This document shows positions 582 to 24,979 of a DNA stretch of 50,200 bases, in pieces. The stretch is taken from positions 1 to 50,200 of the forward strand of contig CANQJK010000004.1 in NCBI GenBank assembly GCA_947624235.1, given 5' to 3'. How positions within the stretch are numbered: the first letter of the stretch is position 1; every line of letters starts with the position of its first letter. The notes under the pieces were generated by a model. The model worked only from the letters and a program-made list of their open reading frames with translations. It made no database searches and was not told the origin of the DNA. Origin of the DNA: an uncultured Clostridia bacterium (GTDB lineage: Bacteria; Bacillota; Clostridia; Christensenellales; CAG-314). Position numbers and translations under genes: made by a program.

Positions 582-590
582 CCCCCCCCC
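582..590 (-). promoter_or_regulatory. G9 homopolymer serving as ribosome binding site
   Basis: Nine consecutive G on the minus strand end three nt before the ATG at 578. The first G is also the last base of the permease stop codon TAG. No other Shine-Dalgarno sequence is present, and a G run can pair with the 16S CCUCC using a G-U wobble. Length changes here would alter initiation without shifting any reading frame. Confidence 0.5.
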
Positions 591-10856: not shown

Positions 10857-12602
10857 ATGAGTAAACCCTACAAAGATTTCGAACCAAAATGGTATCTCGA
10901 CGAACCGCCCAAGGGGAGTTACCGTTCCATTTTCAAATGGGGCGATCCCAAATTCAACAAGACTCCCAAGGAAGCGCTGTACAAGATGATGAAGGAGACG
11001 TTCCACTTGACGGACGACGACTTCGGTCACTATTCCGAACCGCTGGGGTTGGAACAGGTAAAGTTGGATAAGCCCTGTTCGTTAAGCGAGGAATTGTTGG
11101 AAGAATTGCGCCTCATTGTGGGAAACGACAACGTTTCAACCGACGACTACGACCGTTTATCCGTTGCTTACGGCAAAACGATGTTCGATCTGTTGCGCTT
11201 GCGCGAACATATTGCCGATAACGTTCCCGACGTCGTTGTTTATCCCGAAAACAAAGAACATGTGGAAAAATTGGTGGCTTTTTGCACAAAGCACAAAATT
11301 CCGCTGTACGTCTATGGCGGAGGCTCCTCCGTAACTCGTGGCGTGGAGCCTATCTGCGGAGGGATATCCCTCGATATGCGCCGTCATTTCAACAAGGTGG
11401 TGTCCTTTAACGATATCGACCAGACCATCACCGTGGAAGCAGGCATGAGCGGTCCCAAGTTGGAGCAAATTTTGCGTGACGCACCCAACGCGCTCAAAGA
11501 GTACGGCGCTTCTCGCGCATACACATGCGGGCACTTTCCGCAGTCCTTCGAGTACAGTTCGGTGGGCGGATGGACGGTCACTCGCGGAGCGGGACAAAAC
11601 AGCACCTACTACGGCAAGATAGAGGACATCGTCATTGCGCAGGAGTACGCTACTCCCACGGGCACCGTCAAAACAGAGGTGTATCCCGCACGCGCCACAG
11701 GCCCCGATATCAACCAGATAATGATGGGGAGCGAAGGCACTTTCGGCGTGCTTACTCACGTCACCCTCAAAGTGTTCCGTTGGATGCCACAAAATCACTT
11801 CAAATTTTCCTTCATGTTCAAGGATTGGCACACCGCAATGGCTTGCGCTCGCGAAATAATGCAATGCGAGTGCGGACGTCCCAGCGTGTTTCGTCTGTCC
11901 GATCCCGAGGAAACGGATATCACCATGCGCATGTACGGCGTGGATGAAAGCCCGCTAAACGGCATAATGGACCGTTTGGGTTACAAAGCGGGGAAGCGTT
12001 GTCTGTTTCTCGGCTTTACCGACGGCGAAAAGGGCTTTTGCAAAAACGTAGCCAAAAACGTCAAACGCCTTTGCAAAAAGTATCACGCCATGAGCCTAAC
12101 GGGCGCGGTAACATCCGCTTGGGAAAAAGGACGTTTCAACGATCCCTATTTGCGCGACACGATGCAGGATTTCGGCGTGATGACGGACACGTTGGAGTGC
12201 TCGGTGCGGTGGAGCCAGATGGAAGAAGTTCATCAAATGGTGCGCGACTACTGTCACAGCAGACCGAACACGATTTGCATGACGCACATGTCACATTGCT
12301 ACCCCCAGGGTGCCAATTTGTACTTTATTTTCATCGCCCGCATGACGCAACTGGACGAATTTGTCAACTATTGGAGCGGTATCCTCGACCATATCCAAAA
12401 GAGCGGTGCGGCGATCAGCCATCACCACGGCATCGGCAAGTTTTTCGCGCCTTGGTTGGAAGGGCAGATCGGTAGCAGACAAATGGAGGTTTTCAAAACT
12501 TTGAAGAACCACTTCGATCCCGACAATTTGATGAATCCCGGCGGAACGCTCGGTTTGGACCTCGCCGAAGAGGACAAAAAGTTCCTTCGCCCCAAGTGGT
12601 GA
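10857..12602 (+). CDS. FAD-binding oxidase, alkyl-DHAP synthase (AGPS)-like
   Basis: A 581-residue flavoprotein of the FAD_binding_4 / FAD-oxidase_C type. It has the PCMH-type FAD site PLYVYGGGSSVTRG (about 147-160) and SSVGGWTVTRGAGQNSTYYG (about 228-247), close to the AGPS pattern 'S-x-GGW-x-ATRASG...YG-x-IED'. The triple-His motif SHHHGIGKFFAPWL (about 520-533) is the AGPS active-site signature. AGPS exchanges the acyl chain of acyl-DHAP for a fatty alcohol, the committed step of ether lipid synthesis. Being last in an operon that makes DHAP from glycerol supports a link to DHAP chemistry. A different 2-hydroxyacid or glycerol-derivative oxidase is possible. A strong terminator follows. 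Confidence 0.8.
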   Translation: MSKPYKDFEPKWYLDEPPKGSYRSIFKWGDPKFNKTPKEALYKMMKETFHLTDDDFGHYSEPLGLEQVKLDKPCSLSEELLEELRLIVGNDNVSTDDYDRLSVAYGKTMFDLLRLREHIADNVPDVVVYPENKEHVEKLVAFCTKHKIPLYVYGGGSSVTRGVEPICGGISLDMRRHFNKVVSFNDIDQTITVEAGMSGPKLEQILRDAPNALKEYGASRAYTCGHFPQSFEYSSVGGWTVTRGAGQNSTYYGKIEDIVIAQEYATPTGTVKTEVYPARATGPDINQIMMGSEGTFGVLTHVTLKVFRWMPQNHFKFSFMFKDWHTAMACAREIMQCECGRPSVFRLSDPEETDITMRMYGVDESPLNGIMDRLGYKAGKRCLFLGFTDGEKGFCKNVAKNVKRLCKKYHAMSLTGAVTSAWEKGRFNDPYLRDTMQDFGVMTDTLECSVRWSQMEEVHQMVRDYCHSRPNTICMTHMSHCYPQGANLYFIFIARMTQLDEFVNYWSGILDHIQKSGAAISHHHGIGKFFAPWLEGQIGSRQMEVFKTLKNHFDPDNLMNPGGTLGLDLAEEDKKFLRPKW

Positions 12603-12640
12603 TCCATTAAAGAAATAATTCAGAAAACACCTGTTTTTTG

Positions 12641-12669
12641 CCGTCCCAATCGGTTTGGGACGGTTTTTT
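12641..12669 (+). terminator. Rho-independent terminator of glycerol-3-phosphate operon
   Basis: CCGTCCCAA (12641-12649) pairs with TTGGGACGG (12655-12663) around a 5-nt loop and is followed by a run of T, 38 nt after the AGPS-like stop codon. Confidence 0.9.
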
Positions 12670-12744: not shown

Positions 12745-12775
12745 TTGACAAGTGGGGGGGGGTATAAGGTATTAT
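12745..12775 (+). promoter_or_regulatory. Promoter of giant lipoprotein with G9 tract in the spacer
   Basis: A consensus -35 TTGACA (12745-12750) is separated from a -10 TATTAT (12770-12775) by 19 nt. The spacer contains nine consecutive G (12754-12762). Loss of two G would give the optimal 17-nt spacing, so tract slippage is predicted to tune transcription. A TATAAT at 12779-12784 lacks a -35 at the right distance. A good AAAGGAG site precedes the ATG at 12812. Confidence 0.6.
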
Positions 12776-12811
12776 AGATATAATATACTAACAGTAAGAA
12801 AGGAGCAGATT

Positions 12812-15800
12812 ATGAAAAAAATCCGTTCTAATAAAATACTTTTGATTTTGACTTTGGCGTTTGTCTTGTCTTTGACAACGGCGCTGTTGTTTGCCTGCGC
12901 ACCGCACATCGTGGAAGAAAAGCGCACGGTAACCTTTATGAACGGCGACGTGGTGTACGCACAGCAAGAAGTCAAGTTGGGCGAGAAGTATTCATTCCCC
13001 TCTGTCAACCCCACGCGGGAACAGCCCGACGACGAACACCTGATGGAATTTGTCGGTTGGACGCTGGATCCCAACTACTACGAATATCGTAGCGAGATCC
13101 TGACCGAACCGGATTTTGTCGTGGCAAACTTGACTATTTACGCGGCGTTTCGCACTGTTGCGATAAGCGACACTCCCGGCAAGGGAGAGGATCTCAGCTA
13201 CAACGTTGAGTTCCGCATGCCACGCGGAGAGGACTTCGGAGAATTGTCGGGCACGACGCTTACGGAGTTTTCGCAGGAAGTCAAGCGTTACGGCAACGCC
13301 GTCGTGCCCACCGACGAGGATATGCCCCAAATCAAGGGCTATCACTTCACGGGAGAGTGGGTAGGCGGTACGTTGCAAGATATTCGCGGTAACAGGCGCG
13401 TAACTGCCGTCTACGAAAAGAACACCTACAATTACGTTTGGCACTACCTCGGTGAGACTTCTACACGCGAGGTGCTCTTCCGCGACGCCGTCGATTTGAC
13501 GGAACAGCCGACGGTGGAAGACGCATTTGTATTTGACGGTTGGTACACCGACAGTGAGTTTCAAACAAAAGCCTCGTTGACGGAGATACCCGACGGCGAT
13601 GTGGAGTTGTACGCCAAGTATCACATAGATTTCAGCACGGTCACCGTCGCCAAGGAAGGCACGATGGTGTACGGCGACAGCGAAAACAACTTGTTCGTTA
13701 CCGGTCTGAAAGAGTGCGAGGGGCTGGAATACACCTTTGAGTGGAAGTTGAACGATCAATCGTTCGAAAAGTCCGCCGTGCGCAATCACTATGTAAAAGA
13801 GGCGGGCGATTACGTTGTTTCGGTGCGCATATACGCCGACTACAAAGATGGCACGCTTTTGGATAGCGCCGACGCCAAAACAGAGCAAGGCTCGACGCAA
13901 TTTGTATATACATTGGACAAGGCAACATTGAATGCCGTCGTCACCCTTTCCGCAAGTTCGGTAGAATACGGAAGCGAGGCTCCCGTTGCCGATATCGTTT
14001 ACAGCGGATTTGTGTTTGGCGAAACCGCTCAGGAAGTGGGAGTGGGACAAGCCTTCGTTTATATGCAAGGGGACGCGGAAGTTTCCGCTCAAAAACTCCA
14101 TGCGGGCACCTATCGCGTGGAAACAATTCCCACCGTGCTTCAAAACTACAAATTTGCAACGATCGATGCGCCTGTGTTCACCGTCACCGCCAAGGATCTG
14201 ACGGTAAGCGCAAAAGTCACCGTGCAAAATTACACCTACGGCGACGGCTTTGCCTACGATGTTACGTTTGACGGGTTCGTCGAGGAGTACGGCGACAACG
14301 TCGATGTTCTCGGTGAGCATTGGTTTACGTTGGACGGCGCAGGCAAGTATGTGGGCGGAGAGCTTTTCCATGCGGGAGACCACGCCGTACAGCTTTGCGG
14401 TTACGCCTCCGACGACTACAATGTGCTTTTGCCCGAAGAGATCGAATTTACTGTTGCAAAACGCCATGCAGAAGCCACCCTTTTTGCCGAGGGCGGAATT
14501 TACGGCGTTATTCCGCAAATAACCTACGCTTTCGACAACGTGCTAAAACAGGACGAAGAGCGTTTTGTTCCCACCTATACATATAGGCGCGCAAACAACC
14601 CCTACACGGCGATCAACAACCGATTTGTAGTGGGCGACTACACGGTCGACGCGACCTTTGCGGAAAACGGTTTTGACGATTACGAACCCCTTGTCGTCAC
14701 GGGCGACGCTTTTACCATTGTCAAAAAGCAACTCAAAGTAAGCGTATCCGTACAAGACAGCTACACCTACGGCGACAAAGTAAATCCCTCGCCCGTTTAC
14801 GAGCAGGCTTTTGAATTCGGCGAAAGCCAAAACACCGAAGGGCTTGTCAAGGGAAATATTTCTTACAGATTTTTCGATTCTCGTAAACAGTCGTACACGC
14901 GCAACACCTACGTTGTGGATACCTACACCATAGAGGCATTCGGCATATCTTCGGATAACTACGAATTCGTTTTTGAGCAGGGAACGTTTTCCGTTACCAA
15001 AAAGTCGCTTGTTTTGACTGTTAGCCTTGTTTCCGATACTGTCAAGTACGGCGAAACGGACAAGATCGTCGGCAACATATCCTACAACGGGTTTGTGGAG
15101 GGCGAATCGGCAAGTAGCGTGTTCGGCAAAAATTTGCCGACGGTTTACTACACCGACGCCGAAGGTCAAACCACAAGCGTATTCCATGCGGGCACTTATA
15201 CCGCCACCACGACGGCAGATCCCCAAAACTATGCGGTAACGGTGGTGACTGCCACGCTGAACGTTGTCAAACGCTCGCTGTTTGTGGGAATAACGCTCAA
15301 TTACCAAACAGTCGTTTACGGCAATAAACCAAGCTCTACTATCGTCTACCGCAAGGACGGCTTTGACGGATTTGTGCCCGGCGAACAAACGTTGTACACA
15401 TCTCAGGCTTATGTGCTGTACAGCGGAGAACAGAGTTACACGCAAAACGCACTTGTTCAAAGCGCGACCAAAATGTCTGTGGGCAACTATACGCTTTCAG
15501 TACAAGGTATAGACGAAACAATTACAAAAGACTACGAAGTCACCTACCAACATCAAACGGACGCATTGCAATTTTCCGTTACGCCCGCGCAACTCACCGT
15601 TACCGTCAAGTCGGATAGCGCCGAGTACATTTACGGCGAAACGCCTCGTTTTGACATAACTATCAAAGGGTTTGCCTACGACGAAAACGCTCAGACGCTT
15701 TTCGGAGAAAAAGCCAATACTATTGTTTACATGAGCGACGGCAAACAGGTGCAAGTGGGCAAATATATAAACGTCGGTAGCTACACGGCGACGCTCAACG

Positions 15801-18800
15801 GAATTGAAAACTCCAACTACACGGTGGAAATGCACAATTCCGAATTTCGCGTTGACAAAAAGGAATTGAAACTTCAACTGTCCGTAGCTAACTTTGTTTA
15901 CGGAGGCGCTCCCTCTTTGCAATTGAGCTACAACGGCTTTGTCGAGGGCGAAAACACCGACATTCTTGAAGGTAGTGCGGTGTACAGTTACAAATGGAAC
16001 CGCAACGCGGGAGAGGAAAAACAGTCCTATTCGCCCGAAAACTACAAACTGTTCCAAGCGGGATCCTACACGGTATCCGTCGGCGGTTTTTCAAGCGACA
16101 ACTACAACGTTGTTGAGGCAAGCGACGATTTCACCGTTTCCAAGCGCAACTTCACCGTTACGGTGACGGCAAAGAGCATCGCTTACGGAGACGCACCCGA
16201 CTACGGTTATACTACTACCGTGTTGGAGGACGACAAGGAAAGTTTCGATTTCCGTTACGTTCTCACCTTCACACGCACGTCGCAAAATTACCAAACATAT
16301 GACGTGTCGGCATACCCCTACTATCAGGCGGGCAACTATCGCGTAAACATAAGCTACACTCTCAACCCCAACTACAACGAATATGCGGTGCAATTCAAAG
16401 CCTTCACGGTAAGCAAAAAAACGCTCACCGTGGGCGTAAGCGGAGTGGACGCTTCCTATGTGTACGGAGAAAAAATAACGCCTCATTTGACGTTTGACGG
16501 CTGGGTAGCGGGAGAAAGCGAACAGAGCAAGGATATTTTCACCGCCCGTCCCGCAAACGAGTTTACCTACAACAGAAACAAAAACTCGCTCGGCGTTTTC
16601 GATGTGGGCAACTACACCGTTTCGGCAACTCGCGGTTACACAACGCTCAACTACAATGTGGTATCAGCACAGCCAACGTCTTTCAACGTTACGCCCAAGG
16701 CGCTCAAAATAGGCGTCACCGTGCAGGATATCATCTACGGTGCAACGCCCGCTCCCAAACTTGTGTACGAAGGTCTGCTCAAAGGGGACGAGGGCAGTTT
16801 GGACGTTAGCGGTGTAACATATACCTACGAAGGCAACCTTGTAGACGGTGTGTTCCACGCAGGCGAGTATCAAGCAAGCGTAAGCGGAATAACCTCTCGC
16901 AACTACACCGTGACTTTCGGCGAAAAGGTGCAGTTCAGCGTGGGCAAAAAGGACCTTGCATTCAACGTGACGATCGTCCGCAACTCCATCACATACGGCG
17001 AATATCTCGTGGTGGAAACAAGCTACAACGGGTTCGTTCTCGGCGACGGCATAAGCGCGCTGAACGGAGCGCTTGTAATAAGCGTTGACGGCGACGCGTT
17101 CGACCAAAAGGCGTTGTATCACGGCGGAGAACACAACGTAACGTTGTCGGGCTATTCTTCCGACGACTACACGATAAGTTACGGTAGCGTAACGTTTACG
17201 GTAAACAAAAAAGTTCTCACCCACACCCTTCGCTACGAAAAGAGCATCGAATACGGCACGGAATACACTCCGTCTGTAACATTCGATGGCTTTGTCGAGG
17301 GCGAAAGCGTTCAAAACATAGGAAAGGTCGAGTTCTCCTACGGCGACAGCGCAAAGAGCGCCGGCGGTTTTTGGCGCGTTGGTACGCACAGCGTGTCCGT
17401 AGAAGGTTTGTATTCCGAGGACTACGAAATTCCCGAAATAAAATTCAGTTTCGAAGTGACTCCGCGCACGGTCACTATTCAATTCAACAATGTGTGGAAA
17501 ACCTACGCAGACGATATCGACGGCTTTACCTGGTACACTCTCGGAGGAGATGAAATACTCAACGACGGCGCCGAATTGCGTTTCGAAACGTCCGTTACGA
17601 GAAACAGCGTTCGCTACGACAAAGGAAGTGCTCCGTTCTACGACGCAGGTAACTACGTTGTCACGGTGAGTTATGTTATCAACCCCGACTATACGGTAAA
17701 ACAAGGAGAAACGGTGCTTCAAGGCAGTGTTTCCAACACGTTTACCATACAAAAACGAACAATAAACGCCAACATGCTGGACCAAACGGTCACTTTTGCA
17801 AATTGTGAAGCGTGGAAGGGCAATGTTTCCGTCAGAGATCCGCAAAACAAATTGAACGGCAAATTGGTAATAAAGGGCGACATCGTGCTCAAAGACGCGC
17901 AACACGCCGACGTTACCACTTACAGCGACACGTCCATAGGCGATCACTTTGTATGGAAGAACGGCGAATATACTATATCCTATAATGATAGTGATATAAC
18001 AGACAATATTATATTGTCCTACAATTTGAGGCTTGCGATCACTTCTGCATTTTTGCCGAAACTTCCTTCAAGCGAGGATATGCACTTTGTATATGACAAA
18101 ACGGCGCACCGCTTTGAAGTGACGGCAACTGCGGACGGCATAGATCAAAGCGAGATATCGGTAGAATACAGTATCGGCAACAAGGACAACTATTCTGCCC
18201 CCGTACCCGAATTTTCCGATGCGGGCACCTACACGGTGTACTACAAGATCAGTGCAAAAGAACACCCGAGTCTCACGGCGGACGAGGGCGAGTTCGTCGT
18301 TACGATCGACAAAAAGGAAGTCCAAGTGCCCGACGTCAAAGGAACGGTGTACAACGCTACGTTGCAAAAAGCAGATGTTGTCGGCACCGACGAGTACGAA
18401 GTAAGCGAAAACAACGGCGGTACAAACGCAGACAGCTACAACGTCGTATTCAAGTTGATAAATGTTGACAACTACAAATGGATGGGCGAAGAGGACGGAC
18501 AAGCCACCGTTACGCGTCAATTTGTAATTGCAAAGGCAACCCTGACTCGTCCGAGCGCTACCGCTGGACAAAACCTTGTCTACAACGGAACGGAGCAGGA
18601 GTATCTTATCGACCTCAAAGGGCAGGATGCAAAACTGTTCGATATTGTTGGCAACAAGCAAAAGGATGCGGACGATTACAGCGTGACGATAACGCTTCAC
18701 GACGAAGCAAACTACAAGTGGGCAAGCGGTGCAGAAAAGGACGCGATCACATTGTCCTATTCCATTGCAAAGGCAACGCTTACTCTCGGCAAACAAGGCG

Positions 18801-21800
18801 CCCTCACATTTACCTTTGACGGAAGCGATCACTTTGTTGCTTATCAACAAACCAACGTCAAGGGGTTGAAAGGCGACGATACGGTTACGTTGACATACAG
18901 CCGTGAACGAAACGGCAGTTACACTGACGCGCTTACTCTGCGCGATTACAGCGACAGGGGAGCGGTTTACGTCAAGGCGGACGCAGGCAAAAACTACAAC
19001 ATTGCGTACACCGATTATTCCGTCACCGTTATCAAAGCTGATTACAATGTGTCTGTCACAAAGGAACAGACTCACACTTACGACAAGCAACCGTTCGGCA
19101 CGGGCGTTGCCGTAAGCGGTGCAGAACACGACGAACATTTTGAGGGTAGCTACACGCTCTTGTACAACCAAAGCGACAGCGTTGCTCCTCAATACACCAA
19201 TTGGCAAAGTGGCGGTTACACGGTGGGTTACTCTATAACGGGCAACGCCAACTACAACGACGTAAACAGCAGTTACAAAATAGTGATAGAAAAGAGAAAC
19301 TTCGATGTGACCGCTGTGTCCGACGACGTAGCCAATGTGTACGACAACACGTTGAAGGGACGCACTGCTGAGCAGATCAAGGCGCTTATCCAAGGTGTTT
19401 GCGAAGGCGACTCTTTCACGGTAACAGTAAAGAATGCGTCTCAAAGCACCGTAGCGGTGGCAGAATACGACGTAAGCTACGAAGTGGGCGGAAACGCCAA
19501 CTACAACACCGTCAGCGCAACGTACAAGTTTGCCGTTGCAAAAGCAAAACCCGAAATCAACTTCGAAGATATCGGTCAAGACAAGCTTGTTTACAACAGC
19601 GATTCCGACAACAAGGTGTTGATCCGACAGGCTATCTCCTTTGAGCATATCTACGACGACAATCACGAGGTGTGGTATCGCGCCACCAAGAATCTCGCAA
19701 ACGGCATCGTGCCGACTTCGCTGGAAGATGAAGGTTGGGTTCGTTCGATAGACGAGATACAAATAAACGGCGCAGGCGAGTACACGTTGGAAATAAAGGT
19801 TCAAGGCGACAACTACACCGAGAAAACCATATCCAAGACAATTGAAATAGCCAAGGCTGAGGGCAAAATATCGGTAGATGACATCCAGGAAAGTTTCGAT
19901 TACAACGGCACGGAACAAACGGTAACGGGCGCAAGCGCCAACCATTCCGAAAGCGAACTTGTGTACGAAGGCAACTCCTTTACCGATGTTCCCAAAGGCG
20001 GAAAACTCACATTTACCATCATCTTGCCCGAAAGCGACAACTACAAAGAGGCGAAAGTACAACACACCGTAATCGTCAACAAAGCTCAGGCGCGCATCGG
20101 TACAAGCGAAATGGCAAAAGAGTACACCTACAACGGCAACACCCAAACGGTAAAAGGCGCAACGGCGCAAGGGCTTGAAGGCGTAGAGTTGAAGGGTATA
20201 GGTGAAATCACCTACAAAAACAATACGTTCTTGGATGTTCCCGAAGGTGGCAAACAAATAGTTACTATCATACTTTCCGAAGGAGATAACTATCTCGGAG
20301 AGACCATAGATGACTTTGAAATTACCATCAACAAGGCAGAGTACACTGTTAAGCTTCCCGAAAAGCTAAATTGGACTTATAACGGCGTATCATACGACAT
20401 GAGGGTTACCGTCACGGGTGTAGACGGCAACGCGGTAAGCGGTGCAACCGTCACTTACAGCGGAGAAGGCGTTCCGAGCGACGCGCAAATTATCAATTAT
20501 CGACTAAACGGGTACGAAGTGACATATACCGTTGCGGAAACTGCCAACTACGAACAAGCAAGTTCTACCTTCCATGTTAGAGTATATCAAGCAACCCCGC
20601 AATTGAAGTCGGTAGACAACGAAGACACCTACATTTACGACAAAGATGTTTCCAACCACGTCACCGAGGAGGAAATTCGCAACGCCGTGATAACAGGCAA
20701 TGTGTATAGCGACGCAAAAGTAACGTTCAAAGTAAACGGCGGTGCTTTCTCCGAGTCGATCGCCGATGGCGCTACCAAAAACGCCAATAAGTACACAATC
20801 ACGGTGCATGTCGAAGGCGACAACTATGTCAGTGTGAAAGACGTCACCTACACGTTTACGGTATCGCCCAAGCATGTCAAGGTACAATTGACAACACCTC
20901 AAAACACTCCCGACTACGACGGTACCTACGACGGTACGCCGAAAAGCGGAGGTACCATTGAAATCATCGATGACGCTGTTCTCAGCAAGCAGATATACGT
21001 CACATATCCCGATGGTAGCAGAGTGCTCTCTGAAATTATCCCGTCCGTTGTAGATGCGGGCACATACAAGGTGGATATTGACATAGTGTCTACGAGTAAC
21101 TACTATATCGATTCCGACGACGATAACGAAGAAACCACTGGCAATTACAGTTACAGTTACGAGTTTAAGATCGCCAAGGCAACGTTTACTGTCGAGGTTC
21201 ACGATGTTTCCACCTATTACGATGGCAAAGACCACTTTGTCGAATTGACAAAGGACAATGTTAAAGGTTTGCACAAATCGGACGACAAAATAAAGGTAAC
21301 GTACAGCACAGAAGAAAAAGGCACATATGGCGACGCATGGGAGATAAAAAATGCAACAGAAGGCTCTAAAGAGGGTTATGTTGTTGTGTGGTACACAGTA
21401 AGCGTTGTAAGAGAAGATAACAAAGACAACTACAATGAAGTTACGGGATCCTACAAAGTTACCATCAACAAGGCAACGCCGACGGTTCCTCAACTGCCCG
21501 ATATAGCAGAGCAAATCAATCGCTATGACAAAAAGCTCAGCGACGTCAAGCTTCCCAAATATTTCAGCTGGAAGGACGGTTCCGCGCCTCTTGTGTTGGG
21601 CAACAACAAGTACAACGCTTTGTACAACCCAAACAGCCAAAATTACAATGATTTGGCAGTGGAGATCTCCTTCAACACGCGCAAGGAAAAAATAACCGTC
21701 ACATACGACGAAAAGCCGTTTGAAACGACCTACAATGTAGATGTTGACGCTTTTTCACACATCACGTTTACAAATGAAGACGGCGAAGTGCTTTCAAAGG

Positions 21801-24800
21801 AAGAACTTGCTCTGATCAACGGTATTGTTGACGGCTACACCAAGACAATCGGTAGCACCTACTTGGGAAATGTAACGTTTAGTTGCTCCAACAACTACTT
21901 TACACTTGAGACGACTCAATTCAACAATGTGGTTATCAAGGTCAAAACAGTCGATGTCGGTGGTACGTTGTACACAATTGAGGACGCGCTCAACGTCGCA
22001 AAAAACGGCACAATTACTGTAAAATACAACACTTCGTTTGCGGACAAGGAAACGGCAAAATTTGCCGGTTATTGCAATGGCGACGGCTCTCAAAAGAGCG
22101 AGTACTACACCGTCAAGAACGGCGTAACCTTGCTGTTGCCGTATAGCGCAGATGATACAGTTGGAAATGTTTATATCTCGACTACGGATAATCCAAGTTT
22201 GAATAGCAATTTCAACAATTCGTCAAAATATATCACATTATATATATCGAAAGAAACAACACTTTCCAACCTTGGAACCATAATTGTTGGCGGAGTGACA
22301 GGGGCAACAATTACAAACCCGATTGCCGGAGATATCTCCGCAGGGTATAGCGAAATTTCTTTGGACGGAGTTATCAATTCTACCGGAACCATCACGGTAT
22401 ATGGTAATATAATCGGAACAGGAACTATAAATGCGACAAGCGGAACTGTTCGCGAAAGAATGGTAATTACCGATTGGCCCGGAGGTAGACAGGCAGGCGG
22501 AAGATTTGTCGGTAATAAGACCGTTAGTGCTACTAAGTTTCTAGGGGGTTACAGTGAAAAAGATCCTAATGAATTTCCGTTTGAGCAATATAAACTTCAA
22601 GCAATAAACGGCCCCAAACTCAATGTGTATTATGGTGCAAACTATCTTGGAAACGTGCGTATTTACACTGGAATTGTTGAAACATCTGTCGGCACATTAC
22701 CACCTCGTTTGTCCATTGTGGACTTGACAATCGTAACAAAAGCAAACGGCAATTCTGCTGATGGACTGTTCGGTTTGAAAGAAGGAAGTGTTTATACGAA
22801 ACAGGTTGTAGACGGAAGAGAAAAAGTTACCATAACTAATGGTGTCGTTGGAGGCATTACGGGTATTAATATGGTTATTGGAAACGTGATGATAGTTGGC
22901 GAACTTAGTGTAGATATGGATACATCAAACGTCAAATTCCCCATTCCGTCACACGTTGATTTGACCTTTAATGGAGGTAATTCGGAATTTTATTACGGTT
23001 ATGAGTTTATGCCAAGCTCATCTGTTGTGTTAACTAACGATGCCGTTGTAACATTAAACGATCTTGATGATGGTGTGATATTGTACGATACCGCAACTGT
23101 CAGTATTGAATCCGGTTGTAGGCTTGTTGTAAACGGTGCAATTGGCGGACAAATCAATGGTCAAAATGGTGCCGAGGTGGTATTTGGTAGTGGCGCCAAA
23201 ACTGTTGCTACCGGTTATCGTGGCGGTCAAGGTGGTATTGAAATTGAAGGTATTGATTGTAAATGTTCATTCTCTGGCACTTTGGAGGAAAAACAAGCCC
23301 ACGGAAAACTATTGAACGGTGACGGCGCATTTGCGCAAGGTCAAACCTACTACTACAAGAATAACGCTTGGTATTCGGAAAATACCGAATTCAATGTTCA
23401 GTACGAATTTATGCTTCGTAACGAGGACGGAACAACCACGGCGTTTACCGAAAGCGGATTTACAAACGACAATGTGACGCACTACGTTTTAGGCGGTACC
23501 TATGCGTTGCAGAACATCGATTTCGATGGTTACACGTTCCTCGGTTGGTACACCAATGCCGATTGCAGTGCAGAGTACAGAATTGAACAAATCGTCGGTT
23601 CTAACTATTTCGGTGATATCACGCTGTACGGTTTGTTTGAGAAAAAATCAGAGAATAACCTCTACATCACTTACAGTATCGACAAGGAAGGCTATGACAG
23701 CGTCAAATATGTACCGATAACGTTGCCTCGCGATGACATATCCGCTTTCGATCCGTTTGAGGACGAGTGGTTGACAAAAGACGACTACAATGTTGACATC
23801 GGCACATACTTTGGCGGTTGGGAGATCGTCGCTAATGGTGAAACGTTGGCAACATGCACCGACGTTGATTCGCTCAGAGCAAAACTGCTCGAAATCGACG
23901 GCGGAACGGAAGTTACACTTAAAGTTAATTGGGAAAACAAGAATGAAATTAAAGTTTTGCGTAACAGTAATGCAAGCAGTGACAAGCAGTATTTGAAAAT
24001 CACAGTAAAATACAAACAGGGAGAGACTGAAACAACATGGATTTCTGAAAGCACTGCGTCGACGGAAGGCTCCATCTATGTTTTAACCGGAACGAGCATG
24101 ACGATTACATTAGATGTTACGGCCAAAGATGGGAGTGCGCACGGTGGATATAAAGATCCTTGGATTTCCATAAACAATGACAAGAAGTATAGTACCACAG
24201 AACAAACAATATCTATTGAGTCGAATACGACAATAGAGTATGGCGGAACATATGTGAAAAAAGACACCTGCTTTGTCCAAGGCACGCTTATCATGCTTGC
24301 AGACGGCACTTCAAAACCTGTTGAGTTGTTGACGGAAAGCGATCAAATTGTTGTGTTCAATCATGATACCGGTAAATACGAGATTAGCACATTAAGGTTC
24401 AACATTCACGCTGACGAAGAAGCGAGGGAATATCAACTGTTGAGATTGCTGTTCTCGGACGGCACCGAGTTGACAATAGCCAATTACCACGGATTGTTTG
24501 ACAGAACATTACGAAAGTATGTTGTAATTGATGCCGACAATTTCCATGACTATATCGGACATGAGTTTAGTAGCGTCAGGTATGTTGATGGTCAATATGT
24601 TGACGCGCGTGTTACATTGAAATCCGTGGTTGTCTACTACGATACGGTAAAGGTGTACTCACCCATTTCGAACGGTCAAATGAATGTTGTGGCAGAAGGC
24701 TTGCTTACGATGACACCCATCCCTGGTATCAGAGAATTTCTTGTGAACATGTTTGAATATAACGATGACATGTCTTATAATGAAGAAAAGAAACAAAAAG

Positions 24801-24979
24801 ATATAGAACAATACGGTCTGCTGACATATGAAGAGGTAAAAGATTACATGTCGTATGAAGAATGGTTGAAAGCACCCAACCAATACTTGAAAGTCTGTAT
24901 CGGTAAGGGGCTGTTGACCATGGACGACATCCTGTGGATAATTGACTATTTGACAAATGGTGCATACTGGGATATCTAA
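12812..24979 (+). CDS. Giant MBG-repeat surface lipoprotein with C-terminal Hint domain
   Basis: A 4055-residue exported protein. The signal peptide ends in a lipobox-like LLFAC (Cys29), so the N-terminus is probably lipid-anchored outside the membrane. Two InlB/Flg_new-type repeats follow (GWTLDP, GWYTDSEF; about residues 35-270). Then come about 29 MBG-type domains of 75-100 residues (about 365-2960), each starting L-x-V-x-V...YG and ending F-x-V-x-K. A Gly/Asn/Thr-rich beta-helix-like stretch (about 3050-3510) and two more InlB-like repeats (GWYTNADC, GGWEIV) come next. The C-terminus is a Hint domain starting at Cys3820 (CFVQGTLIMLADG). Start: ATG 12812 with AAAGGAG upstream; an ORF extension to 12752 lies inside the promoter. 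Likely a long fibre or adhesin; ligand unknown. The next gene follows after 69 nt with no obvious terminator. Confidence 0.9.
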   Translation: MKKIRSNKILLILTLAFVLSLTTALLFACAPHIVEEKRTVTFMNGDVVYAQQEVKLGEKYSFPSVNPTREQPDDEHLMEFVGWTLDPNYYEYRSEILTEPDFVVANLTIYAAFRTVAISDTPGKGEDLSYNVEFRMPRGEDFGELSGTTLTEFSQEVKRYGNAVVPTDEDMPQIKGYHFTGEWVGGTLQDIRGNRRVTAVYEKNTYNYVWHYLGETSTREVLFRDAVDLTEQPTVEDAFVFDGWYTDSEFQTKASLTEIPDGDVELYAKYHIDFSTVTVAKEGTMVYGDSENNLFVTGLKECEGLEYTFEWKLNDQSFEKSAVRNHYVKEAGDYVVSVRIYADYKDGTLLDSADAKTEQGSTQFVYTLDKATLNAVVTLSASSVEYGSEAPVADIVYSGFVFGETAQEVGVGQAFVYMQGDAEVSAQKLHAGTYRVETIPTVLQNYKFATIDAPVFTVTAKDLTVSAKVTVQNYTYGDGFAYDVTFDGFVEEYGDNVDVLGEHWFTLDGAGKYVGGELFHAGDHAVQLCGYASDDYNVLLPEEIEFTVAKRHAEATLFAEGGIYGVIPQITYAFDNVLKQDEERFVPTYTYRRANNPYTAINNRFVVGDYTVDATFAENGFDDYEPLVVTGDAFTIVKKQLKVSVSVQDSYTYGDKVNPSPVYEQAFEFGESQNTEGLVKGNISYRFFDSRKQSYTRNTYVVDTYTIEAFGISSDNYEFVFEQGTFSVTKKSLVLTVSLVSDTVKYGETDKIVGNISYNGFVEGESASSVFGKNLPTVYYTDAEGQTTSVFHAGTYTATTTADPQNYAVTVVTATLNVVKRSLFVGITLNYQTVVYGNKPSSTIVYRKDGFDGFVPGEQTLYTSQAYVLYSGEQSYTQNALVQSATKMSVGNYTLSVQGIDETITKDYEVTYQHQTDALQFSVTPAQLTVTVKSDSAEYIYGETPRFDITIKGFAYDENAQTLFGEKANTIVYMSDGKQVQVGKYINVGSYTATLNGIENSNYTVEMHNSEFRVDKKELKLQLSVANFVYGGAPSLQLSYNGFVEGENTDILEGSAVYSYKWNRNAGEEKQSYSPENYKLFQAGSYTVSVGGFSSDNYNVVEASDDFTVSKRNFTVTVTAKSIAYGDAPDYGYTTTVLEDDKESFDFRYVLTFTRTSQNYQTYDVSAYPYYQAGNYRVNISYTLNPNYNEYAVQFKAFTVSKKTLTVGVSGVDASYVYGEKITPHLTFDGWVAGESEQSKDIFTARPANEFTYNRNKNSLGVFDVGNYTVSATRGYTTLNYNVVSAQPTSFNVTPKALKIGVTVQDIIYGATPAPKLVYEGLLKGDEGSLDVSGVTYTYEGNLVDGVFHAGEYQASVSGITSRNYTVTFGEKVQFSVGKKDLAFNVTIVRNSITYGEYLVVETSYNGFVLGDGISALNGALVISVDGDAFDQKALYHGGEHNVTLSGYSSDDYTISYGSVTFTVNKKVLTHTLRYEKSIEYGTEYTPSVTFDGFVEGESVQNIGKVEFSYGDSAKSAGGFWRVGTHSVSVEGLYSEDYEIPEIKFSFEVTPRTVTIQFNNVWKTYADDIDGFTWYTLGGDEILNDGAELRFETSVTRNSVRYDKGSAPFYDAGNYVVTVSYVINPDYTVKQGETVLQGSVSNTFTIQKRTINANMLDQTVTFANCEAWKGNVSVRDPQNKLNGKLVIKGDIVLKDAQHADVTTYSDTSIGDHFVWKNGEYTISYNDSDITDNIILSYNLRLAITSAFLPKLPSSEDMHFVYDKTAHRFEVTATADGIDQSEISVEYSIGNKDNYSAPVPEFSDAGTYTVYYKISAKEHPSLTADEGEFVVTIDKKEVQVPDVKGTVYNATLQKADVVGTDEYEVSENNGGTNADSYNVVFKLINVDNYKWMGEEDGQATVTRQFVIAKATLTRPSATAGQNLVYNGTEQEYLIDLKGQDAKLFDIVGNKQKDADDYSVTITLHDEANYKWASGAEKDAITLSYSIAKATLTLGKQGALTFTFDGSDHFVAYQQTNVKGLKGDDTVTLTYSRERNGSYTDALTLRDYSDRGAVYVKADAGKNYNIAYTDYSVTVIKADYNVSVTKEQTHTYDKQPFGTGVAVSGAEHDEHFEGSYTLLYNQSDSVAPQYTNWQSGGYTVGYSITGNANYNDVNSSYKIVIEKRNFDVTAVSDDVANVYDNTLKGRTAEQIKALIQGVCEGDSFTVTVKNASQSTVAVAEYDVSYEVGGNANYNTVSATYKFAVAKAKPEINFEDIGQDKLVYNSDSDNKVLIRQAISFEHIYDDNHEVWYRATKNLANGIVPTSLEDEGWVRSIDEIQINGAGEYTLEIKVQGDNYTEKTISKTIEIAKAEGKISVDDIQESFDYNGTEQTVTGASANHSESELVYEGNSFTDVPKGGKLTFTIILPESDNYKEAKVQHTVIVNKAQARIGTSEMAKEYTYNGNTQTVKGATAQGLEGVELKGIGEITYKNNTFLDVPEGGKQIVTIILSEGDNYLGETIDDFEITINKAEYTVKLPEKLNWTYNGVSYDMRVTVTGVDGNAVSGATVTYSGEGVPSDAQIINYRLNGYEVTYTVAETANYEQASSTFHVRVYQATPQLKSVDNEDTYIYDKDVSNHVTEEEIRNAVITGNVYSDAKVTFKVNGGAFSESIADGATKNANKYTITVHVEGDNYVSVKDVTYTFTVSPKHVKVQLTTPQNTPDYDGTYDGTPKSGGTIEIIDDAVLSKQIYVTYPDGSRVLSEIIPSVVDAGTYKVDIDIVSTSNYYIDSDDDNEETTGNYSYSYEFKIAKATFTVEVHDVSTYYDGKDHFVELTKDNVKGLHKSDDKIKVTYSTEEKGTYGDAWEIKNATEGSKEGYVVVWYTVSVVREDNKDNYNEVTGSYKVTINKATPTVPQLPDIAEQINRYDKKLSDVKLPKYFSWKDGSAPLVLGNNKYNALYNPNSQNYNDLAVEISFNTRKEKITVTYDEKPFETTYNVDVDAFSHITFTNEDGEVLSKEELALINGIVDGYTKTIGSTYLGNVTFSCSNNYFTLETTQFNNVVIKVKTVDVGGTLYTIEDALNVAKNGTITVKYNTSFADKETAKFAGYCNGDGSQKSEYYTVKNGVTLLLPYSADDTVGNVYISTTDNPSLNSNFNNSSKYITLYISKETTLSNLGTIIVGGVTGATITNPIAGDISAGYSEISLDGVINSTGTITVYGNIIGTGTINATSGTVRERMVITDWPGGRQAGGRFVGNKTVSATKFLGGYSEKDPNEFPFEQYKLQAINGPKLNVYYGANYLGNVRIYTGIVETSVGTLPPRLSIVDLTIVTKANGNSADGLFGLKEGSVYTKQVVDGREKVTITNGVVGGITGINMVIGNVMIVGELSVDMDTSNVKFPIPSHVDLTFNGGNSEFYYGYEFMPSSSVVLTNDAVVTLNDLDDGVILYDTATVSIESGCRLVVNGAIGGQINGQNGAEVVFGSGAKTVATGYRGGQGGIEIEGIDCKCSFSGTLEEKQAHGKLLNGDGAFAQGQTYYYKNNAWYSENTEFNVQYEFMLRNEDGTTTAFTESGFTNDNVTHYVLGGTYALQNIDFDGYTFLGWYTNADCSAEYRIEQIVGSNYFGDITLYGLFEKKSENNLYITYSIDKEGYDSVKYVPITLPRDDISAFDPFEDEWLTKDDYNVDIGTYFGGWEIVANGETLATCTDVDSLRAKLLEIDGGTEVTLKVNWENKNEIKVLRNSNASSDKQYLKITVKYKQGETETTWISESTASTEGSIYVLTGTSMTITLDVTAKDGSAHGGYKDPWISINNDKKYSTTEQTISIESNTTIEYGGTYVKKDTCFVQGTLIMLADGTSKPVELLTESDQIVVFNHDTGKYEISTLRFNIHADEEAREYQLLRLLFSDGTELTIANYHGLFDRTLRKYVVIDADNFHDYIGHEFSSVRYVDGQYVDARVTLKSVVVYYDTVKVYSPISNGQMNVVAEGLLTMTPIPGIREFLVNMFEYNDDMSYNEEKKQKDIEQYGLLTYEEVKDYMSYEEWLKAPNQYLKVCIGKGLLTMDDILWIIDYLTNGAYWDI
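13920..21690 (+). repeat. Array of about 29 MBG-type domain repeats within the giant gene
   Basis: The translated region divides into consecutive beta-sandwich units. Units 1-15 (to about 18050) are about 85-95 residues with the pattern 'YG...F-x-GFVxGE...HAGxYxVxxxGxxSxNYxV...FxVxK'. Later units are shorter, with 'YNGTEQ' or 'YDGK' openings and 'GDNY' or 'ANYN' before the last strand. Repeats diverge strongly, so the array looks old rather than freshly expanded. Confidence 0.8.
24269..24720 (+). other. Hint (hedgehog/intein) domain coding region
   Basis: The translation starts with nucleophile Cys3820 in CFVQGTLIMLADGTSKPVEL, the standard Hint block A. It continues with VVFNHDTGKYE and the block-B-like TIANYHGLFD, whose His3893 is the expected acyl-shift catalyst. 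The final strand reads SPISNGQMNVVAEGLLT and lacks the His-Asn pair needed for protein splicing. This supports N-terminal thioester cleavage, as in hedgehog-type Hint domains, rather than splicing. About 85 residues follow, with no recognised toxin fold. Confidence 0.8.

Follow-up and report, generated by a model that had tools for sequence, protein, structure and literature searches.

How should we read a run of nine consecutive Gs that lies inside the promoter of a giant lipoprotein gene: as a switch that works through promoter spacing, as a fixed part of the promoter, or as an accident of sequence or assembly? The run belongs to the promoter at 12745-12775 of a 50,200-nucleotide stretch of DNA (the window) from an uncultured gut Clostridia bacterium; the window is contig C4 of a 1.66-Mb assembly that is 95% complete.

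The promoter has the order TTGACA-AGT-GGGGGGGGG-TATAAGG-TATTAT, and the layout proposed in the initial annotation, with the two hexamers 19 nt apart and nine Gs between them, is correct (Table 1). The upstream gene ends in an intrinsic terminator, so the lipoprotein gene is expected to have a promoter of its own; a standard promoter scan, which allows spacers of 16-18 nt, misses this one because its spacer is 19 nt. The homopolymer lies between recognisable -35 and -10 boxes, as in promoters of the porA/tp0126 type, and the -35 box, 3 nt 5' of the tract, is neither replaced nor overlapped by it. The tract is also outside the reading frame used, and so differs from a translational frame switch, because the Shine-Dalgarno sequence and the start codon (ATG, 12812-12814) are both downstream of it. 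A GTG in frame at 12752 lacks a Shine-Dalgarno sequence and was not considered a likely start. As partners of TTGACA we rejected TATAAT (at 28 nt) and TATAAG (at 12 nt). An inverted repeat, TATTAT-AGAT-ATAATA (12770-12785), spans the -10 box and the alternative TATAAT and is possibly an operator, or chance.

Table 1. Features of the promoter region and promoter-spacer tracts of the genome.
Feature	Position	Strand	Evidence
Upstream FAD-linked oxidase gene (FAD_binding_4 + FAD-oxidase_C); synteny anchor	10857..12602	+	domains
Intrinsic terminator of upstream gene: 10-bp stem, T tail	12640..12664	+	promoter/terminator scan
-35 hexamer TTGACA	12745..12750	+	sequence
Spacer, 19 nt	12751-12769	+	sequence
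G9 tract, inside spacer	12754..12762	+	sequence, pattern search
-10 hexamer TATTAT	12770..12775	+	sequence
Alternative -10 TATAAT, perfect; 28 nt from -35	12779..12784	+	sequence
Shine-Dalgarno AAGGAG	12800..12805	+	six bases 5' of ATG
4055-aa lipoprotein, MBG_2 + List-Bact repeats	12812..24979	+	translation, domain search
Promoter-spacer tracts of own genome	window's G9 tract (C4), C7:11991, C7:29730, C9:33997, C33:2768, C53:5155		census

The gene product was initially described as a 4055-residue surface fibre. The length stands; the sequence itself gives a lipobox-like N-terminus (...TALLFACAP) and MBG_2 repeats, which, together with the enrichment of exported products across the promoter set (see below), point to a surface or exported protein, and "surface fibre" is an extrapolation from these. 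The C-terminus (24269-24979, CFVQGTLIMLADGTSKPVE...) resembles a Hint/intein domain, a likeness whose sole support is a weak hit in the PDB, the intein-domain protein 8w20 (E 0.06).

Most known examples of transcriptional phase variation by G tracts come from Gram-negative pathogens and from spirochaetes. The Bordetella fim genes resemble our locus in that a promoter homopolymer switches a surface gene, but theirs is an activator-dependent C-tract promoter, whereas the -35 box of the window is intact. The same likeness extends to opc, one of the precedents offered in the initial annotation, and there the parallel fails: the opc poly-C tract includes the -35 and is likely to work through a regulator (PMC7864442). 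The porA precedent, from N. meningitidis, holds, since its G tract is clearly within the spacer between -35 and -10, a change of spacing is the switch and the target is a surface protein (PMC7864442). It differs in that porA encodes a Gram-negative outer-membrane porin, whereas here the gene encodes a lipoprotein of an uncultured Clostridia bacterium and the assembled spacer is 19 nt. Poly-G promoters also occur at tp0126 and the tpr genes of Treponema pallidum, a spirochaete that the initial annotation did not cite: the tp0126 tract is in the spacer and transcription is best at 17 nt, and the tprL tract ranges from G7 to G11 within isolates and in vivo, mostly G9, the length found in the window (PMC7864442). 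The locus at 12745-12775 would itself belong to an already known kind of switch promoter.

We consider it probable, judging from the comparisons that follow, that this is a sigma-A promoter whose spacer would be set by a hypermutable G tract, that is, a case of spacer-length phase variation of the porA/tp0126 type. Replication slippage would add or remove single Gs in the tract, the -35 and -10 boxes would thereby shift toward or away from the 17-nt optimum, and the shift in spacing would raise or lower transcription of the giant lipoprotein gene. The predicted promoter states are weak for G9 (19 nt), intermediate for G8 and strong for G7. The promoter would be one of a set in the genome and in the order, mostly ahead of exported proteins, in which the common G9 state would usually lie one or two bases off the optimum.

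Tract length differs between some related promoters. Five sets of near-identical promoters differ by exactly one G, with the reservation, which applies to all genomes compared, that these are assemblies whose tract lengths may be off by one: G375 has G10 where G276 has G9 (flanks 95-97% identical), an eight-copy lipoprotein family of G402 has six G8 and two G7 copies, a family of G396 has both G8 and G7 copies, paralogues in G128 have G11 and G12, and the orthologues of G244 and G301 have G9 and G8. Other duplicate sets (in G020, G023 and G024) have equal tract lengths. The G402 family (L176-L183) is spread over eight contigs, with one G7/G8 promoter and leader in common and divergent sequence past the lipobox. 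For the lipoprotein gene of the window, two sister species were compared: in G020 the orthologue, which is syntenic and 51% identical across the first 1200 residues, has TTGACA-GTA-G10-TAATG-TATAGT with an 18-nt spacer, and the orthologue in G019 (50% identical) has TTGAAA-17-TATGAT, without a tract. The initial annotation had named an invariant G9 in all relatives as grounds for giving up the idea; instead, single-unit changes are seen both between related copies and between species. A G023 gene in the oxidase-flanking slot, whose promoter has a G4 run, was first taken for another orthologue and proved on comparison not to be orthologous.

How widespread is the arrangement? We searched for the pattern TTGAC-N-G7+-N-TATNAT, with the reversed pattern as control. 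The pattern has 4 matches in the window's own genome. Within the genus it is present in 20 of 25 genomes, within the family in 3 of 11 genera, and within the order in 84 of 396 sampled genomes (35 of 142 genera); the reversed control gave 0 at each of these three levels. Outside the order, 10 of 372 sampled genomes of the class matched, mostly with one match each and often with a short tract. A census of the window's genome, made by pattern search and from sequence stretches, gives 28 runs of G8-10 (8 of eight, 17 of nine, 3 of ten), of which 6 sit between a TTGAC box and a -10. Run lengths are bimodal, with G8-10 abundant and sevens very few: runs of exactly six and exactly seven satisfy n6 + 2*n7 = 25, and one G7 was seen. 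By this bimodal census and the empty control, the tracts are longer and more frequent than expected by chance, and the G-tract promoter at 12745-12775 is no chance motif. C-tract versions also occur in the genus, at G002:C41:14795-14826 and G003:C67:8186-8219 (TTGACA, then C9-C10, then TATAAT).

Spacer lengths reveal a further regularity. Among the matches listed, 112 of 144 tractless TTGACA/TATAAT promoters of the genus are spaced at 17 nt. For tract promoters that share both of these consensus hexamers (n=111), the spacers are 16 nt in 29, 17 nt in 10, 18 nt in 22 and 19 nt in 17, and the contrast at 17 nt (10/111 against 112/144 listed) has a Fisher p of about 3e-30, a value that overstates independence because promoter copies are partly related. 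With exactly nine Gs, the counts at 16, 17, 18 and 19 nt are 23, 2, 12 and 11. The dip at 17 was first noticed in genomes of the genus and of other families within the order; in a further set of genomes, 17 nt is again rarer than 16 (10 vs 26) and rarer than 18 (10 vs 14), the latter not significantly. The hexamer-matched tract promoters peak at 16 and 18-19 nt, and in all three sets 17 falls below both 16 and 18. Most simply read, the tract length found most often would leave these promoters off-optimum, one or two slips from the optimum. Taken with the 17-nt preference of tractless promoters, this avoidance hints indirectly that transcription from tract promoters may depend on tract length and be best at 17-nt spacing.

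The genes behind the tracts are also a biased sample. A crude N-terminal classifier, which looks for lipoproteins, signal peptides and N-terminal membrane segments, scores the products as exported-type for 45 of 70 genes that follow tract promoters and for 8 of 39 that follow tractless ones (Fisher 1.9e-5); for lipoproteins alone the counts are 24 and 3 (p 0.002).

Could the tract instead be a fixed promoter element, an A-like helix or a site for a bound protein that sets promoter strength, with an optimum other than 17 nt and incidental differences in length? Presence of the tract and its approximate length (nine) are kept while the flanks diverge, and 16- and 18-nt spacers dominate, as such an element would have it. 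A shifted optimum, however, predicts one peak, whereas we see two, either side of 17, in both arrangements; the one-G differences between related copies, the 17-nt spacer of the tractless orthologue and a bias toward exported targets like that of known contingency loci also speak against it, and we regard the fixed element as unlikely. More doubtful still is control of the gene from another -10, the TATAAT at 12779-12784, or by a regulator at TATTAT-AGAT-ATAATA, with the tract either having some other role or none. Just downstream there are indeed a short palindrome and a perfect TATAAT, but that hexamer is 28 nt from TTGACA and a second -35 to pair with it was not identified; in the G020 orthologue, TTGACA and the tract are retained, with a -10 at 18 nt. 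We give almost no credence to a chance homopolymer or an assembly artefact: metagenome assemblies do carry homopolymer-length errors and one locus alone is weak evidence, but the reversed pattern has no match in genus or order, where the true pattern is matched about 80 times and more than 200 times respectively, and a uniform sizing error would not give a two-sided dip at 17.

Points against spacer-length switching are that most long tracts of this genome (22 of 28) lie outside promoter spacers, that tract lengths in assemblies may be off by one, that the signal-peptide classifier is crude and the promoters partly related, and that mismatch repair is present. MutS is encoded in the window's own genome and in 23 of 25 genomes; its presence would lower mononucleotide slippage rates, and slippage would have to happen despite it. 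Loss of MutS as the driver was rejected for this genome, which encodes it. Alone among the nearly complete genomes of the genus, G023 has no MutS_I match, and it also has the longest promoter-spacer tract (about G18, C4:8164-8200). Overall, the core claim of the initial annotation, a candidate spacer-length switch that is weak as sequenced, gains support from the order-wide recurrence, the one-G differences, the G10 and tractless orthologues and the avoidance of 17-nt spacing. We infer slippage within the population, an effect on expression and a benefit to the cell, and likewise switching at 12745-12775 itself.

More broadly, we lean somewhat toward a picture in which an order of uncultured gut Clostridia has poly-G spacer promoters throughout the genome, chiefly ahead of genes for lipoproteins and other exported proteins, with flanks tuned so that the usual G9 sits one or two bases either side of the 17-nt optimum: a surface phasome that is low by default and that one or two slips would turn on. 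If true, surface proteins of commensal Clostridia would be switched stochastically in the gut, and avoidance of 17-nt spacing would allow such promoters to be recognised, and their state predicted, from genomes alone. The new part is this apparently order-wide set in uncultured Clostridia and its avoidance of 17 nt. A search for literature on phase variation under the order name Christensenellales (a guessed name) found none, and further searches, within a limited collection of papers, turned up no account of it in Clostridia of this kind, a result that falls short of proving absence. Among named records, those closest are Candidatus Fimimonas merdipullorum and MAGs from rabbit gut titled "uncultured Clostridia"; Fimimonas is placed under Myxococcota in the NCBI tree, at odds with the Clostridia titles of those records.

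The remaining 22 of the 28 long tracts of this genome lie outside promoter spacers: within genes for repeat-rich proteins (C30, C36, C46), at Shine-Dalgarno-like positions and elsewhere. In the window, a second G9 tract (582-590, minus strand) follows the stop codon of an ABC-2-like permease gene and precedes the ATG of the gene after it; the tract occupies the Shine-Dalgarno position, so slippage could alter translation initiation there. Three G9 tracts fall within long reading frames of repeat-rich proteins (L043 1564-1572, L046 1587-1595, L045 1561-1569) and are candidates for frame-switch phase variation; two of these proteins have an SGHSDA-MP-GGG motif in common.
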